Assembly (NCBI GenBank): GCA_013297775.1
Contig: JAAFIL010000033.1
Coordinates: 1-38,514, forward strand
From: Bacteroidota bacterium
GTDB lineage: Bacteria; Bacteroidota; Bacteroidia; B-17B0; Aurantibacillaceae
Direction of reading: 5' to 3'
DNA length: 38,514 nucleotides
Shown: one piece after another, positions 1,793 through 38,514 of the stretch
Layout: each line of letters starts with the position of its first letter
How positions within the stretch are numbered: position 1 is the first letter of the stretch
Program-made: the position numbers and the translations under genes
The notes under the pieces: generated by a model
Told to the model about the DNA's origin: nothing
Database searches by the model: none
Seen by the model: the letters and a program-made list of their open reading frames with translations, nothing else

Positions 1793-2040
1793 GGGCGTGT
1801 CCCCTCATCAATTTCTAGTGGCTGTGCTTCATCAATAGCCTGTTATCTGGCTAAAAGGTTACACTAAAACGTAAAGTCGGGGTCGGGCTATCGGCTTTAG
1901 CCAATGCAGCGTTGGCGGCTTTTGTTGCGGTCTGCGGGGTCTTCGTGCCTCAGCCTCCTCGCTCGCACAAAAGCACACCAACGCCCGCATTGGGCTACCG
2001 CCGAATTTATATTGAGCGAAGTCGAAATATCCCTCACGCA
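1793..2040 (+). repeat. SE1 structured dispersed element, copy A
   Basis: One of four full copies of a non-coding element. It opens with TTGGGCGTGTCCCC (GCGTG at 1795-1799) and closes with ATCCCTCACGC (CACGC at 2035-2039), so the ends pair. GTCGGGGTCGGGCT follows about 80 nt after the start and its GGGG can pair with the initial CCCC. The rest is a long imperfect hairpin whose arms run GGCTTTAGCCAATGC..GTTGG..GCTTTTGT and ACAAAAGC..CCAAC..GCATTGGGCTACCGCC. The loop (TGCGGGGTCTTCGTGCCTCA) is shared with copy B. A 60-aa reading frame on the opposite strand is a by-product of the conserved sequence. Confidence 0.8.
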
Positions 2041-2106
2041 AAAAGAATCTAAGAAAAAAGGTTTACTTCAAATTAAATTTAGTGTCAACAATTTATTCAT
2101 TTCTAT

Positions 2107-2373
2107 CTTTGCCCCTTTGCGTGCCACTAATTAACAAAAACAAATCACTCTAAATTCCTTTGCGAACTTTGCACCTTTGCGTGCCACCAATTAACAAAAA
2201 CAAATCACTCTAAATTCCTTTGCGACCTTTGCCCCTTTGCGTGCCACTAATCAACAAAAACAAACCCCTCTAAATTCCTCCTTTGCGATCTTTACCCCTC
2301 TGCGTGCCACTAATCAACAAAAATAAATCCCTCTAAATTCCTTCTTTGCGACCTTTGCGCCTTTGCGTGCCAC
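2107..2373. repeat. Tandem repeat array 1 (TTTGCG-rich, 60-63 bp unit)
   Basis: Five occurrences of the core CTTTGCnCCTTTGCGTGCCAC, with GTGCCAC at 2121, 2181, 2241, 2304 and 2367, hence spacings of 60, 60, 63 and 63 bp. Between the cores is a conserved AT-rich block (taat.aacaaaaa.aaat..ctctaaattcc). Whole units are alike, with no unique spacers, so this is a tandem repeat rather than CRISPR. The core matches, in reverse complement, that of the second array near 19.3 kb. Together with SE1 copy A it fills the gap between the flanking genes. Confidence 0.85.
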
Positions 2374-9994: not shown

Positions 9995-10207
9995 CCGTGA
10001 GGGATGAAGGCGGCAGCGAGTGCAGGTTTTTTGTAGGCCATTGCGCAGGCGAGGCGGCTGAGGCACGAAGACCCCGCAGCCGCTGCAATGCCGCAAAAAA
10101 CCAAGCGACTAAAGCCGACAGCCCGACCCCTAAGAAGAACATGCTACCAAAAGTAACTCTAGCTTAAATTTATTTTTTGTGTTTCATAAACACTATTGGG
10201 GGCACGG
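9995..10207 (-). repeat. SE1 structured dispersed element, copy B (most divergent)
   Basis: Read on the minus strand it opens GCCGTGCCCCC, continues to CTTAGGGGTCGGGCT, and ends ATCCCTCACGG. The closing stem is CCGTG/CACGG where the other copies have GCGTG/CACGC, a two-sided change. The hairpin arms have GGTTTTTTG/CAAAAAACC instead of GCTTTTGT/ACAAAAGC, again changed on both sides. The loop shares TGCGGGGTCTTCGTGCCTCA with copy A. It fills most of the gap between the T9SS cargo gene and the plug-protein terminator. Confidence 0.75.
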
Positions 10208-10235
10208 CATTATTCTATATCATTTATACAAACCA

Positions 10236-19255: not shown

Positions 19256-19444
19256 AGCACGCTAAGTTCGTAAAGAAGGAAATGATACGGCGGTGATGAG
19301 TTGTTGAGTGGCTCGCAAAGGCGCAAAGTTCGCAAAGAAGGAAATGATGCGGTGGTGATGAGTTTGTGGATGGCACGTTAAGACGCAAAGTTCGCAAAGA
19401 AGGAAACGAAGCATTGGTGATGAGTTTGTGGATGGCTCGCTAAG
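19256..19444. repeat. Tandem repeat array 2 (62-bp unit)
   Basis: About three units beginning TGGCTCGCAAAG-like at 19309, 19371 and 19433 (period 62), preceded by a shorter 5' unit. Each unit holds GCGCAAAGTTCGCAAAGAAGG followed by aaatgatgcggtggtgatga. The core is the reverse complement of the CCTTCTTTGCGaaCTTTGCG core in array 1. It lies directly after cphA and has no unique spacers. Confidence 0.8.
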
Positions 19445-19501
19445 ATAATCTTAATCTTGTTAAAAGATTGACACTTAAACCGTTTATTGCGCGAGCAATT
19501 T

Positions 19502-21832: not shown

Positions 21833-21994
21833 ATACCAACATCATTTCTAAAAGATACGTTGACCCAGTTTCTTTTTCTCTTATACTTCCTCAAAAATTA
21901 TACCCGTAACCCTTGCTACGCCTATAATTTTTTCGTTGCCTAAAAGAAAAATAATTCTGGTTCAACTTGTATCTTTTAGAACCGATATTGGTAT
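21833..21994. repeat. HP162 inverted-repeat element, copy 1 (MITE-like)
   Basis: 162-bp near-palindrome. The left end ATACCAACATC..TTCTAAAAGATAC..GTTGA.CCAG matches the reverse complement of the right end ATACCAATATC..TTCTAAAAGATAC..GTTGAACCAG. Inside, CTTTTTCTC..AAAAATTATA pairs with TATAATTTTTT..AAAAG, so the whole element folds as one long hairpin with a ~20-nt tip. It shares all but about six bases with copy 2 at 30.0 kb. It carries no protein. It fills most of the gap between two convergent T9SS cargo genes. Confidence 0.85.
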
Positions 21995-22051
21995 AAGTCC
22001 AAAAAAGTCCTAGGTAGTATTACAGTTTAATCGAACTCAATTACAAATCCA

Positions 22052-29723: not shown

Positions 29724-29770
29724 TCGTGAGGGATATTTCGGCTTCGCTTAATATAAAGCCGCCAAAGCCC
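29724..29770 (-). repeat. SE1 remnant (copy E, truncated)
   Basis: CGTGAGGGATATTTCGGCTTCGC matches the 3' end of SE1 in reverse. After AATATAAA it jumps to GCCGCCAAAG, which resembles the opposite hairpin arm, so the hairpin appears deleted. It stops where the next inverted-repeat element begins. Confidence 0.65.
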
Positions 29771-29772
29771 TT

Positions 29773-29992
29773 ATACCAAGTGAACTTATATTTTAGTCCA
29801 ATCTACTCGTTCTTTTTCATCATTACTTCTTTAAAAATTTGTTCCAGGGCAAACATATAGTATATGTTTGAGCCAGTTTGTGTGCTAGGGCTATGCAACA
29901 AATTTTTTCATCGTATTGATAAAATTTATACTGAGCATAGCCGAAGCAAATAACTTCGCATCTTTGGACTAAAATATAAGTTCATTTGGTAT
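29773..29992. repeat. IR220 inverted-repeat element (MITE-like)
   Basis: 220 bp bounded by 28-bp terminal inverted repeats with one mismatch in the core: ATACCAAGTGAACTTATA..TTTTAGTCCAA on the left and its complement (ATACCAAATGAACTTATA..) on the right. A second nested palindrome lies inside (AAAAATTTGTT / AACAAATTTTT around AAACATA-TAGTA-TATGTTT). It is non-coding and single in this window. It shares the terminal ATACCAA with the HP162 family. Confidence 0.75.
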
Positions 29993-30021
29993 TATACCAA
30001 ATTTTAAGAAAGTAGAGCTTT

Positions 30022-30183
30022 ATACCAACATCATTTCTAAAAGATACGTTGACCCAGTTTCTTTTTCTCTTATACTTCCTCAAAAATTATCCCCGTAGGC
30101 CTTGCTAAACCTATAATTTTTTCGTCGCCTAAAAGAAAAATAATTCTGGTTCAACTTGTATCTTTTAGAACCGATATTGGTAT
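30022..30183. repeat. HP162 inverted-repeat element, copy 2
   Basis: Same 162-bp length and orientation as copy 1 at 21.8 kb, with about six substitutions, all near the hairpin tip or inner stem. The terminal arms (ATACCAACATC... and its complement) are unchanged. It sits between IR220 and SE1 copy C. Confidence 0.85.
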
Positions 30184-30257
30184 TAGAATAAAATAGCTAA
30201 CTCTGTAAAAAATACTTGAACTCAAATAGGCAACAAAAATTTTTTGAGAATCTCACT

Positions 30258-30524
30258 GCGTGAGGGATATTTCGACTTCGCTCAATATAAATTTGGCGGT
30301 AGCCCAATGCGAAGTTTGGCGTGCTTTTGTGCGAGCGAGGAGGCGACCTTAGAAGCCACCGCAGCGACTTCGGCAGGCTCAGCGCAGACCGCAACAAAAG
30401 CCGCCAAAAGTGCATTGGCTAAAGCCGATAGCCCGACCCCGACTTCAGTTTTAGAGTTCTCTTTATAGTTACTTAACCAGCTACTGGCTTAGATGAACCT
30501 TTTAAACAGACAAGGGGGCACGCC
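30258..30524 (-). repeat. SE1 structured dispersed element, copy C
   Basis: Read on the minus strand it opens TTAGGCGTGCCCCC and closes ATCCCTCACGC; GTCGGGGTCGGGCT lies inside. The hairpin arm has TTTGG/CCAAA where copy A has GTTGG/CCAAC, a two-sided change. The loop (CTGCGCTGAGCCTGC..AAGTCGCTGCGGTGG) is shared with copy D, not with A or B. A 74-aa frame across it is a by-product. Confidence 0.8.
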
Positions 30525-30672
30525 TAAAAAATAATAGATAAATCAACGGTACATAACTTGTTGCAAATTCACAGAAATCAAACGTTTAAAAACAAGTTGT
30601 AAACTTTCTTTCTTGAAATTTGGTGAAGATTAAAATTTCAAGAAACTTATGATACGTTAAAGGCGAGTCGTT

Positions 30673-32660: not shown

Positions 32661-32923
32661 AATTTAGTTTTGTGCAAAGGTGCGGCATCTATAACTTTTG
32701 CCACATAGGGAAAACCCTTTATTTTTGTGAGATTAGCGTGTAATACTATTTAACCGAGATTATGGATTGTAATTTTTTAATAGTTAACATCATAACTAGG
32801 ACTTATTGATTTTACAGGGTAATCAAATAACATAAAACAATTTTCATTTTGAACGCTATACAGAAAGAGATTGAAAATCAATTATTTTAATCCTTAATTC
32901 AAGTTATTTAATTCGTTAAGCAT
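32661..32923. other. Gene-free spacer upstream of the beta-helix lipoprotein
   Basis: AT-rich. It holds the upstream region of the lipoprotein gene (the minus strand has CACCTTTG, one mismatch from the -7 box, shortly before the ATG). Nothing else is seen before the structured element that follows. Confidence 0.45.
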
Positions 32924-33087
32924 TTCTTAATTCCTCTTTCCCCCTCGTGTTTGTTTGAGCGTTAGCGGAAACGAGGATGTGATAAACGGGCGTTTGTAAA
33001 GCCCACACCATTACTTTATCTGCGTTACAAACGCAGTTCTCAAACGTCCTCGTTACGCTTCGCTGAACAAGGACGAGATAAGGGGTC
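32924..33087. repeat. SE134 structured element, copy 1
   Basis: The core at 32944-33077 is 134 bp. Its ends pair imperfectly (CTCGTgttTGTTTgAGCG with CGCTgAACAAGGACGAG). An AACGAGGA/TCCTCGTT stem follows, and inside GCGTTTGTAA.GC and GCGTTACAAACGC can pair with each other or form two separate hairpins. The core differs from copy 2 at about eight positions, and similarity continues slightly outside. It lies 45 bp beyond the stop of the response regulator gene. Confidence 0.8.
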
Positions 33088-33131
33088 ATCCATAATTCAC
33101 GTTATTTACTCTGGCGACTCGCTTTCTCGAA

Positions 33132-37811: not shown

Positions 37812-38118
37812 GGGCGTGTCCCCTTTTGTTTATTTAAAGGGATAGGTTGAGCCAATAGTTTATGACCTCGTTAAATGATCACACTTAACATTGATGTCGG
37901 GGTCGGGCTATCGGCTTTAGCCAATGCGGCTTTAGCGGCTTTTGTTGCGGTCTGCGCTGAGCCTGCAAAAGTCGCTGCGGTGGCTTCTCGGCTTACACAC
38001 AGGCTGGCTCAAAAGTCCACTGGACTTTTGCCCCCCCTCGCTCGCACAAAAGCACGCCAAACCCTGCATTGGGCTGCCGCCAAATTTATATTGAGCGAAG
38101 TCGAAATATCCCTCACGT
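37812..38118 (+). repeat. SE1 structured dispersed element, copy D (longest)
   Basis: Opens TGGGCGTGTCCCC and closes ATCCCTCACGT; the closing stem GCGTG/CACGT keeps pairing through a G-U. GTCGGGGTCGGGCT lies inside. The loop carries the same CTGCGCTGAGCCTGC..AAGTCGCTGCGGTGG block as copy C plus an extra ~45 bp with its own perfect palindrome, CAAAAGTCCACTGGACTTTTG split as 10+1+10. Confidence 0.8.
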
Positions 38119-38157: not shown

Positions 38158-38304
38158 ATGCAATAGGAATCTTAGTGAGAAGCGAAAGCCCAATAAAACA
38201 GGTACTTTTTCGACTGAGGCATAGTGCCTCTATGGTGAAGAAGAAAAAGTGGCGAAGTGCCCTGTTTTGAAGGGATTTCGGCTCGTAATAGATTTCTATT
38301 GCAT
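38158..38304. repeat. IR147 inverted-repeat element
   Basis: 147 bp. Ends ATGCAATAGGAATCT and AGATTTCTATTGCAT are complementary with one mismatch. Inside, AAAACAGG pairs with CCTGTTTT, ACTTTTTC with GAAAAAGT, and the tip has GAGGCA-TAG-TGCCTC. The nested stems make one long interrupted hairpin. Single copy in this window; no coding content. Confidence 0.75.
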
Positions 38305-38332
38305 AATTCCATCTAACTCATTTTTTAAGCGG

Positions 38333-38496
38333 TTCTTAATTTCTCTTTTCCCCTCGTCCTTGTTTGAGCGTTAGCGGAAACGAGGATGTGCTAAACGGGC
38401 GTTTGTAACGCCCACACCATCACTGTATCTGCGTTACAAACGCAGCTCTCAAACGTCCTCGTTACGCTTCGCTAAACAAGGACGAGATAAGGGTTC
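38333..38496. repeat. SE134 structured element, copy 2
   Basis: The core at 38353-38486 is 134 bp with stronger pairing than copy 1: CTCGTCCTTGTTTgAGCG with CGCTaAACAAGGACGAG, hairpin GGGCGTT-TGT-AACGCCC, and hairpin CTGCGTT-ACA-AACGCAG. It is in the same orientation as copy 1, on the far side of the dxs/kinase/regulator operon. Confidence 0.8.
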
Positions 38497-38514
38497 AAGT
38501 ATTTTTACAGAGTT

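Follow-up and report, generated by a model that had tools for sequence, protein, structure and literature searches.

SE1, a structured intergenic module related to Flavo-1, is probably multiplied as cargo of short non-autonomous MITEs in a Bacteroidota genome

What kind of element recurs between the genes of a Bacteroidota genome with its base pairs kept and its bases changed, and by what means has it spread? The question is raised by SE1, found in the window analyzed here (38,514 nt, the whole stretch of DNA; contig 56 of a 4.35-Mb draft genome of 128 contigs). Type IX secretion tail and TonB plug domains, together with the distribution of relatives, suggest Bacteroidota as the source. The initial annotation recognized four full copies of this dispersed element and took the compensatory differences among them for the signature of a structured RNA or a folded-DNA mobile element, not of decaying sequence. 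The four copies are real, in that the boxes described are present on the strands described and covariance model R1, built from 30 complete copies of this genome with the window's four included, places each of them. The copies and one fragment are:

1794-2039, + strand: SE1 copy A (subfamily A), full three-way junction, 213 bits with R1, in the model alignment
9995-10208, - strand: SE1 copy B (subfamily B), closing stem CCGTG/CACGG, 165.9 bits with R1
30258-30524, - strand: SE1 copy C (subfamily A), 194.6 bits with R1
37813-38118, + strand: SE1 copy D (subfamily A, the longest), 175.8 bits with R1
29725-29757, - strand: partial copy, the 3' end of SE1, 94% identical to 30259-30291 in the repeat search

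The count of four gives way to at least 62 copies when R1 is run over the whole genome, and at least 62 R1 matches are found in the sister species G027 as well. The word GTCGGGsTnTCGGCTTTA alone has 35 strict and 46 looser matches in this genome; read backwards as a control, it has none. Thirty complete copies were delimited for alignment A2, from which 5 of 35 were left out as partial, and a later set comprises 39 copies, after 2 of 11 extra copies were dropped. The four sites hold as annotated and their extent does not: the unit is longer than marked, extending by ~100 nt on the left side and 45 nt on the right in stretches of which parts are weakly common to the commoner subfamily. Optional submodules, CTGCGCTGAGCCTGCCGAAGTCGC and TTTATATTGAGCGAAGTCGAAA, occur in some A2 copies and are missing from others (e.g., 30258-30524 in the window); they lie towards the tip of P3 and ahead of the 3' box, and look like small hairpins inserted into the arm.

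Compared with one another, the copies support a three-way junction consisting of a closing stem P1, a CCCC/GGGG arm P2 and a long arm P3, which in copy A are placed as follows:

1795-1799 with 2035-2039, + strand: P1, GCGTG with CACGC (RNAalifold and pair counts, 30 copies)
1801-1882, + strand: P2, CCCC (1801-1804) with GGGG (1879-1882), a variable loop of ~70 nt between
1885-2033, + strand: P3, the long arm with internal loops, the Flavo-1-homologous part (opposite strand)

Both sides have changed in 20 of the 41 pairs predicted by RNAalifold from the 30 copies (shuffled mean 13.7), 94.5% of the paired cells can pair (84.5 +/- 0.5% after shuffling), and the covariation score is 0.289, against 0.121 for shuffled columns and at most 0.095 for slid partners. 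Not one of 500 shuffles reached any of these three values; the test is one of shuffling, in which phylogeny is not modelled. A weaker contrast is seen in the number of further pair types (44 vs 39.3 shuffled, a value reached by 15 of 500 shuffles). The closing stem behaves alike in two species, with 14 distinct stems among 39 copies of this genome (184 of 195 cells paired; shuffled mean 167, maximum 177) and 11 among 20 copies of G027 (89 of 100 cells paired; shuffled mean 57, maximum 73). A single SE1 copy folds only moderately better than its shuffles (z ~ -3.2, about three standard deviations), so folding energy alone would be insufficient to reveal the fold.

Most of the compensatory changes cited in the initial annotation can be read in the alignment, namely the closing stems GCGTG/CACGC in copies A and C, CCGTG/CACGG in B and GCGTG/CACGT in D, an arm segment that is GTTGG/CCAAC in A and TTTGG/CCAAA in C, and the CCCC/GGGG pairing kept in all four copies. 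One example was misaligned: GGTTTTTTG/CAAAAAACC of copy B, given as the counterpart of GCTTTTGT/ACAAAAGC, sits at the position of GCGTTGG/CCAACGC in copy A, and the counterpart of GCTTTTGT in B is GCATTGC. The claim of compensatory change is confirmed despite this example, and its strength bears out the reading as a structured RNA or folded-DNA mobile element and not decaying sequence.

The initial annotation could name no described family and had allowed that one in Rfam might cover these coordinates. None does: the window has no Rfam match at the cut-off, and the model of Flavo-1 (RF01705) has none in it even at E <= 5. Flavo-1 is nevertheless a described family close by, and sequence comparison indicates that SE1 is a divergent relative of it; we call it a relative rather than a member because the score that defines the family (gathering score 42 bits) is not attained. 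The genome search with the Flavo-1 model gave no match at E <= 1, and two loci of this genome, L165 and L163, score 35.8 and 22.8 bits against it, both below the cut-off. The homology is argued from a chain. L165 and an SE1 copy (L004) share 89% identity over 168 nt, and L165 matches Flavo-1 with E 4.9e-4; L179, of G027, is 77% identical over 134 nt to another SE1 copy (L001) and matches Flavo-1 with E 0.0079. Sister-species loci with the same boxes match RF01705 on the opposite strand. Together with the R1 matches to Flavo-1-type loci, this chain shows the P3 arm to be homologous.

R1 found matches in 35 of 40 tested sources (E <= 1), Flavo-1-type loci of the genus included, and the five sources left unmatched are L101, L174, L175, L187, and L229. 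Within the genus, 17 of 37 genomes have a match, this one among them; beyond it, so do seven of the eight loci of G045, which belongs to another family, and five of six viral-labelled contigs (E 1e-13 to 3e-8). Flavo-1 itself is found in 32 of the 37 genus genomes at E <= 1, 21 of them above the cut-off and this genome not among them; of 14 control genomes, four match at E <= 1 and none is above the cut-off. Over the class, 61 of 149 genomes match at E <= 0.01 (34 above the cut-off), against 0 of 14 controls.

Like Flavo-1, SE1 is dispersed, intergenic and from Bacteroidota, and its P3 arm has the paired internal loops (...AGCGGAnAGC / GGGATnG... on the Rfam strand). SE1 differs in its extra closing stem P1 and arm P2, and its P3 is longer, with inserts in some copies. 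The first internal loop of this arm is mostly GNA/GNA in Flavo-1 types and mostly GAG/CGA in SE1 (20 of 26 extracted), where a G-C substitutes for an A.G pair. Table 1 of Weinberg 2010 (PMC2864571) rates Flavo-1 as 'probably' RNA and probably not cis-regulatory. Rfam classes it as 'Gene; sRNA', and a passage of PMC9029176 places it among abundant sRNA families without giving it a function; RF01705 is also named in PMC3765529 and PMC7682815. No description of Flavo-1 as transposon cargo was found in the literature searched, and its repetitiveness may have been noticed earlier. At L178, L172, and L182, whole Flavo-1-type elements are tandemly duplicated along with their flanks (periods of ~349, ~325, and a similar length, respectively).

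The module also occurs on plasmids. SE1 itself has no match there, and the plasmid matches come from a minimal element, taken from the viral-labelled contig L084, which matches eight plasmid records (Phocaeicola 2, Moraxella 2, Bacteroides 1, and Vibrio 3, the three Vibrio matches spanning 43-45% of the query). R1, checked on five plasmid records and one phage record, matches both Moraxella elements (E 3e-7 and 1.7e-5), the Phocaeicola element (E 9e-8) and the faecal phage record (E 2e-5), and has no match in the tested Vibrio (L365) or B. ovatus element; the latter matches Flavo-1 below the cut-off (E 0.002). The two Moraxella elements lie 737 and 1,354 nt past an antirestriction gene, and by this proximity they can be likened to the Frpo/ssi single-stranded DNA promoters, which a passage of PMC11541004 describes as folded single-stranded DNA on mobile plasmids; the comparison is an analogy only. 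The full box pattern is matched 10 times among 2.9 million viral contigs, a looser one 29 times. A short word occurs in at least 120 of these contigs, about what is expected by chance according to our estimate, and the closing box is present in 6 of the 120 listed. Five of the seven L084 proteins match PHROGs, all of them of unknown function, so the term 'viral' rests on the IMG/VR label for this contig.

How such a module moves is best seen in a sister species, G018. Of the 20 copies fetched there, 12 are enclosed by 13-bp inverted repeats of the GGGTCAAnCGGAA type at a distance of 228-360 bp from each other. The eight outer bases adjoining the two ends agree at 84.4% of positions, against 35.2% (maximum 59.4%) for shuffled partners, and the match drops to 50% and 48% when seven and nine bases are taken. 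Four of the 12 duplications are perfect, five agree at 7/8 positions and the remaining three at 6, 5, and 3. The flanks thus contain an 8-bp target duplication, the module-bearing unit has transposed, and the G018 units have both the terminal inverted repeats and the fixed-length target duplication of MITEs. Mobility, as proposed in the initial annotation, therefore holds in the sister species with its 8-bp target duplications, the transposition seen there being that of MITEs with the module as cargo.

The elements of this genome that bear on carriage are:

29996-30624: MITE enclosing copy C, ends ACCAAATTTTAAGAAAG (29996-30012) and CTTTCTTGAAATTTGGT (30608-30624), no clear target duplication
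30022-30196: second, unrelated MITE-like repeat nested in the copy C MITE, also at 21833-22007 (94%)
ACCAAATTTCAAGAAAG: MITE end type of this species

Unlike that of G018, the MITE end of this genome, CCAAATTTCAAGAAAG, occurs 41 times at no more than one mismatch; reversed, it does not occur at all. Complete inverted ends enclose SE1 at copy C, L160, and L289 (462 bp), that is, there are three complete pairs of terminal inverted repeats around SE1, none with a clear target duplication (only AT is shared outside two of the three pairs). The left end was found at its expected place in 4, 5, and 11 of 29 subfamily-A copies when up to 2, 3, and 4 mismatches were allowed, compared with means of 0.00, 0.02, and 0.17 for shuffled controls and 0 of 116 in each case for windows further left. 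The ends in G018 and in this genome being different, the module is carried, by this comparison, by two unrelated MITE families. Six of 20 G027 copies have ~250 nt of right flank in common, which is perhaps a third carrier. No shared flanks were seen by eye in the G026 and G032 copies examined, where several copies form inverted (head-to-head) pairs, and no shared outer flanks were found in the classic Flavo-1 copies examined from G100 and G057; MITE carriage is thus not general.

No transposase with either MITE end was seen among the ORFs near the fetched ends of these draft genomes, as judged by eye; the same inspection found no parent transposase in the G018 contig ends and, in a 1,082-bp end-to-end pair at L286, only a 157-aa ORF on the other strand. 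Near atpB, the core word is absent in 29 of 29 relatives, by a pattern that may miss divergent copies, and the compared stretches did not extend to the gene upstream of atpB. Other elements with the MITE end of this genome bear different cargo, e.g., CGCAAAGGCGCAAAG repeats. Words of the type CGCAAAG are likewise cargo of the MITEs with the ACCAAATTT end, and they recur in two tandem arrays of the window (2090-2373 and 19260-19445), which are built of 60-63-nt units and stand in mutually inverted relation. Two MITE-like repeats with ATACCAA... ends are present in the window, one at 21833-22007 and 30022-30196 and one at 29773-29992.

In size and ends the carriers resemble known MITEs, with 228-360 bp, 13-bp inverted repeats and 8-bp duplications in G018 and units of 462-654 bp with inverted ends in this genome. 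The difference lies in the cargo, which appears to be an ancient structured module common to unrelated MITEs, viral-labelled contigs, and plasmids. Within the insertions, it is the module that is conserved. Among 29 subfamily-A copies, the mean pairwise identity is 0.71 for the core (0.48 shuffled, GC 0.60), 0.60 for the loop (0.53), 0.57 for the left arm (0.54) and 0.55 for the right arm (0.52), and the stretch further left is at background (0.51 vs 0.51). The structured core has stayed more alike than the flanks belonging to the same insertions, which again speaks against decaying sequence. Of the 39 copies, 34 could be placed, the 5 without both neighbors being left out, and none of the 34 overlaps an ORF of at least 90 aa. 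Eighteen lie between tandem genes (12 on the same strand and 6 on the opposite one), while 11 have divergent and 5 convergent neighbors, with no significant orientation preference with respect to the neighboring genes. This placement argues against a terminator and against an sRNA with its own promoter.

SE1 is therefore probably a non-coding structured module, homologous to the Flavo-1 stem, that has been multiplied as cargo of short non-autonomous MITEs. We favor this explanation because of the covariation, the homology chain, the target duplications in G018, the inverted ends in this genome, the conservation of the core, the minimal forms on plasmids and viral-labelled contigs and the intergenic placement. 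Fold, covariation, homology with Flavo-1 types, presence on plasmids and viral-labelled contigs, and transposition of the unit in G018 are each shown by comparison of sequences; function is what we infer. Transposases acting in trans would move the MITEs, and the module would be kept since in its folded, single-stranded form it serves the element that carries it, most likely as DNA exposed in replication, transfer or transposition and possibly as a transcript too. Once stranded between genes, the MITE arms would decay faster than the module.

Folded single-stranded DNA is thus a live alternative to RNA, and the unpaired bases of the family bear on the choice. On the Rfam strand, elements with a short P2 have a GNA loop in 20 of 25 three-base P2 loops (GAA 14, GTA 4, GCA 2; the others are AAA 3 and AAC 2). 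The three-base register is adopted because the outer pairs vary (GCC/GGC, CCT/AGG, CGCC/GGCG, and ACCC/GGGT), and these pairs would be disrupted if a four-base UNCG register on the other strand were assumed. The first internal loop of P3 is GNA/GNA in 22/27, 6/7, 18/19, 28/32, and 7/7 elements of five sets and in 2 of 26 SE1 copies of this genome; the second is GNA/GNA in 55 of 85 elements of the first four sets, in none of the seven from G027 and in none of the 26 SE1 copies, all these counts being made on related copies that are not independent. The pattern used recovered 1 of 20 G100/G057 copies (not GNA) and 7 of 20 G027 loci, and the 20 loci of G026/G032 yielded 7 matches. Internal loops of the GNA/GNA type occur in DNA, and the RNA counterparts of GNA hairpins in DNA are less stable; sheared G.A loops occur in RNA too. 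GNA loops closed by two or more G-C pairs are described as unusually stable DNA mini-hairpins in a passage of PMC4686876.

In structure prediction, 41 relatives were compared: the Rfam strand forms the full junction in 33 of them as DNA and in 28 as RNA, the other strand in 20 and 19, respectively. The corresponding numbers for the 39 SE1 copies of this genome are 25 and 22 on the Rfam strand and 18 and 16 on the other strand. The predictions would thus favor the Rfam strand, and DNA only slightly. On the SE1 strand, G.U exceptions outnumber those of the A.C type 12 to 4 (p 0.08), in an underpowered test that gives only 5 to 2 for E. coli rRNA; no 23S rRNA match turned up in the draft genome to serve as a yardstick. 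With that power, the exceptions lean to the strand opposite to that of a DNA reading.

On this basis we put forward, tentatively and as something possible that we would not yet expect to hold, that Flavo-1 and SE1 are folded single-stranded DNA devices on the Rfam strand and no RNA family. The P2 loop (C-GNA-G) and the internal loops of P3 (GNA/GNA) would use the motif of stable DNA hairpins, phages, plasmids, and MITEs would carry the module so that its folded DNA is recognized in their single-stranded phase, and the chromosomal copies would be the residue of repeated capture by unrelated MITEs.

That SE1 is instead a true structured RNA, a trans-acting sRNA or a cis element that MITEs merely copy, appears unlikely, though it is the strongest of the competing explanations. 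It can draw on the published rating of Flavo-1, on the 28 of 41 relatives whose Rfam strand folds to the full junction as RNA, and on the sheared G.A loops shared with RNA. Transcription data described in part of PMC9723704 cut both ways, as some 5' transcribed regions of F. psychrophilum overlap Flavo-1 matches, and the matches are indistinctly sense and antisense, with many outside transcribed regions. At least 62 intergenic copies with 12 same-strand and 6 opposite-strand cases between tandem genes, and two unrelated MITE families as carriers, are hard to reconcile with such an RNA.

Two further explanations are improbable, and about equally so. A neutral palindrome could acquire compensatory changes, and a fold without use, by gene conversion and hairpin-templated correction, for which many similar copies are available; the G.U/A.C strand test, not being clearly asymmetric, is compatible with it. 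Palindrome correction does not explain the conserved unpaired G and A with a free base in the middle, nor why the three-way topology recurs in other families, on plasmids, and on viral-labelled contigs. A bidirectional terminator or transcription insulator would account for the T-run, GC stem, and A-run of subfamily A, in which T-runs precede the closing stem and A-runs come after it. Subfamily B has no T-run, the conserved unpaired bases are unnecessary for termination, and with 11 of 34 placed copies between divergent genes and 5 between convergent ones the gene context does not fit, so we rejected a terminator.

Very improbable is a REP/BIME-type repeat moved by a RAYT (TnpA_REP) HUH nuclease, despite the short palindromes, the many intergenic copies, the inverted head-to-head pairs of G026 and G032, and the 'atypical secondary structures' mentioned in a passage of PMC6006769 beside Bacteroidetes genes of subclass 2.6. 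SE1 is longer, three-armed, embedded in MITEs in two genomes and without a general RAYT association. The one intact RAYT-like gene of this genome (188 aa, with YIHQNP, as read from the sequence) is flanked by another repeat, which is also present in the window at 32885-33088 and 38294-38497. R1 had no match in 31 Y1_Tnp loci at E <= 10, and an Rfam scan of the same loci gave a single Flavo-1 match, at L215 of G010 (27.3 bits, E 0.11 over all Rfam families). There (1408-2045), what is plausibly a truncated Flavo-1, consisting of P3 and the 3' end, starts 15 nt past the RAYT stop codon, with the RAYT's own palindrome replacing the 5' part; perhaps a RAYT unit was inserted into a Flavo-1. With one truncated element in 31 loci, beyond the RAYT palindrome, and the intact gene adjoined by a different repeat, RAYT was rejected as the general mover. 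A match at L195, a reading frame-like stretch lacking the other boxes, was taken as chance.

The repeat beside the intact RAYT (CTCGTCCTTGTTTAGCGAAGCGTAACGAGGACG...) is BIME-like and dispersed, flanks the gene at ~900-1380 and 1985-2125 of L033, and also occurs shortly downstream of SE1 in at least 10 loci of this genome. A Y1 transposase locus of G035 (L201) has sub-threshold, inverted matches to Acido-Lenti-1 (RF01687, 30.4 bits, E 0.0055) at 278-323, 1241-1286, and 1297-1341, and this other Rfam 'sRNA' may also be a REP-type DNA element.

For the family as a whole, the results indicate that relatives of Flavo-1 are carried by transposons, with target duplications in at least one species, and that the Flavo-1/SE1 family extends to plasmids from a different phylum. 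A DNA-hairpin rule is obeyed by many of the unpaired bases. Given the transposon cargo, the plasmid reach, and this rule, Flavo-1 matches in annotated genomes would have to be read differently.
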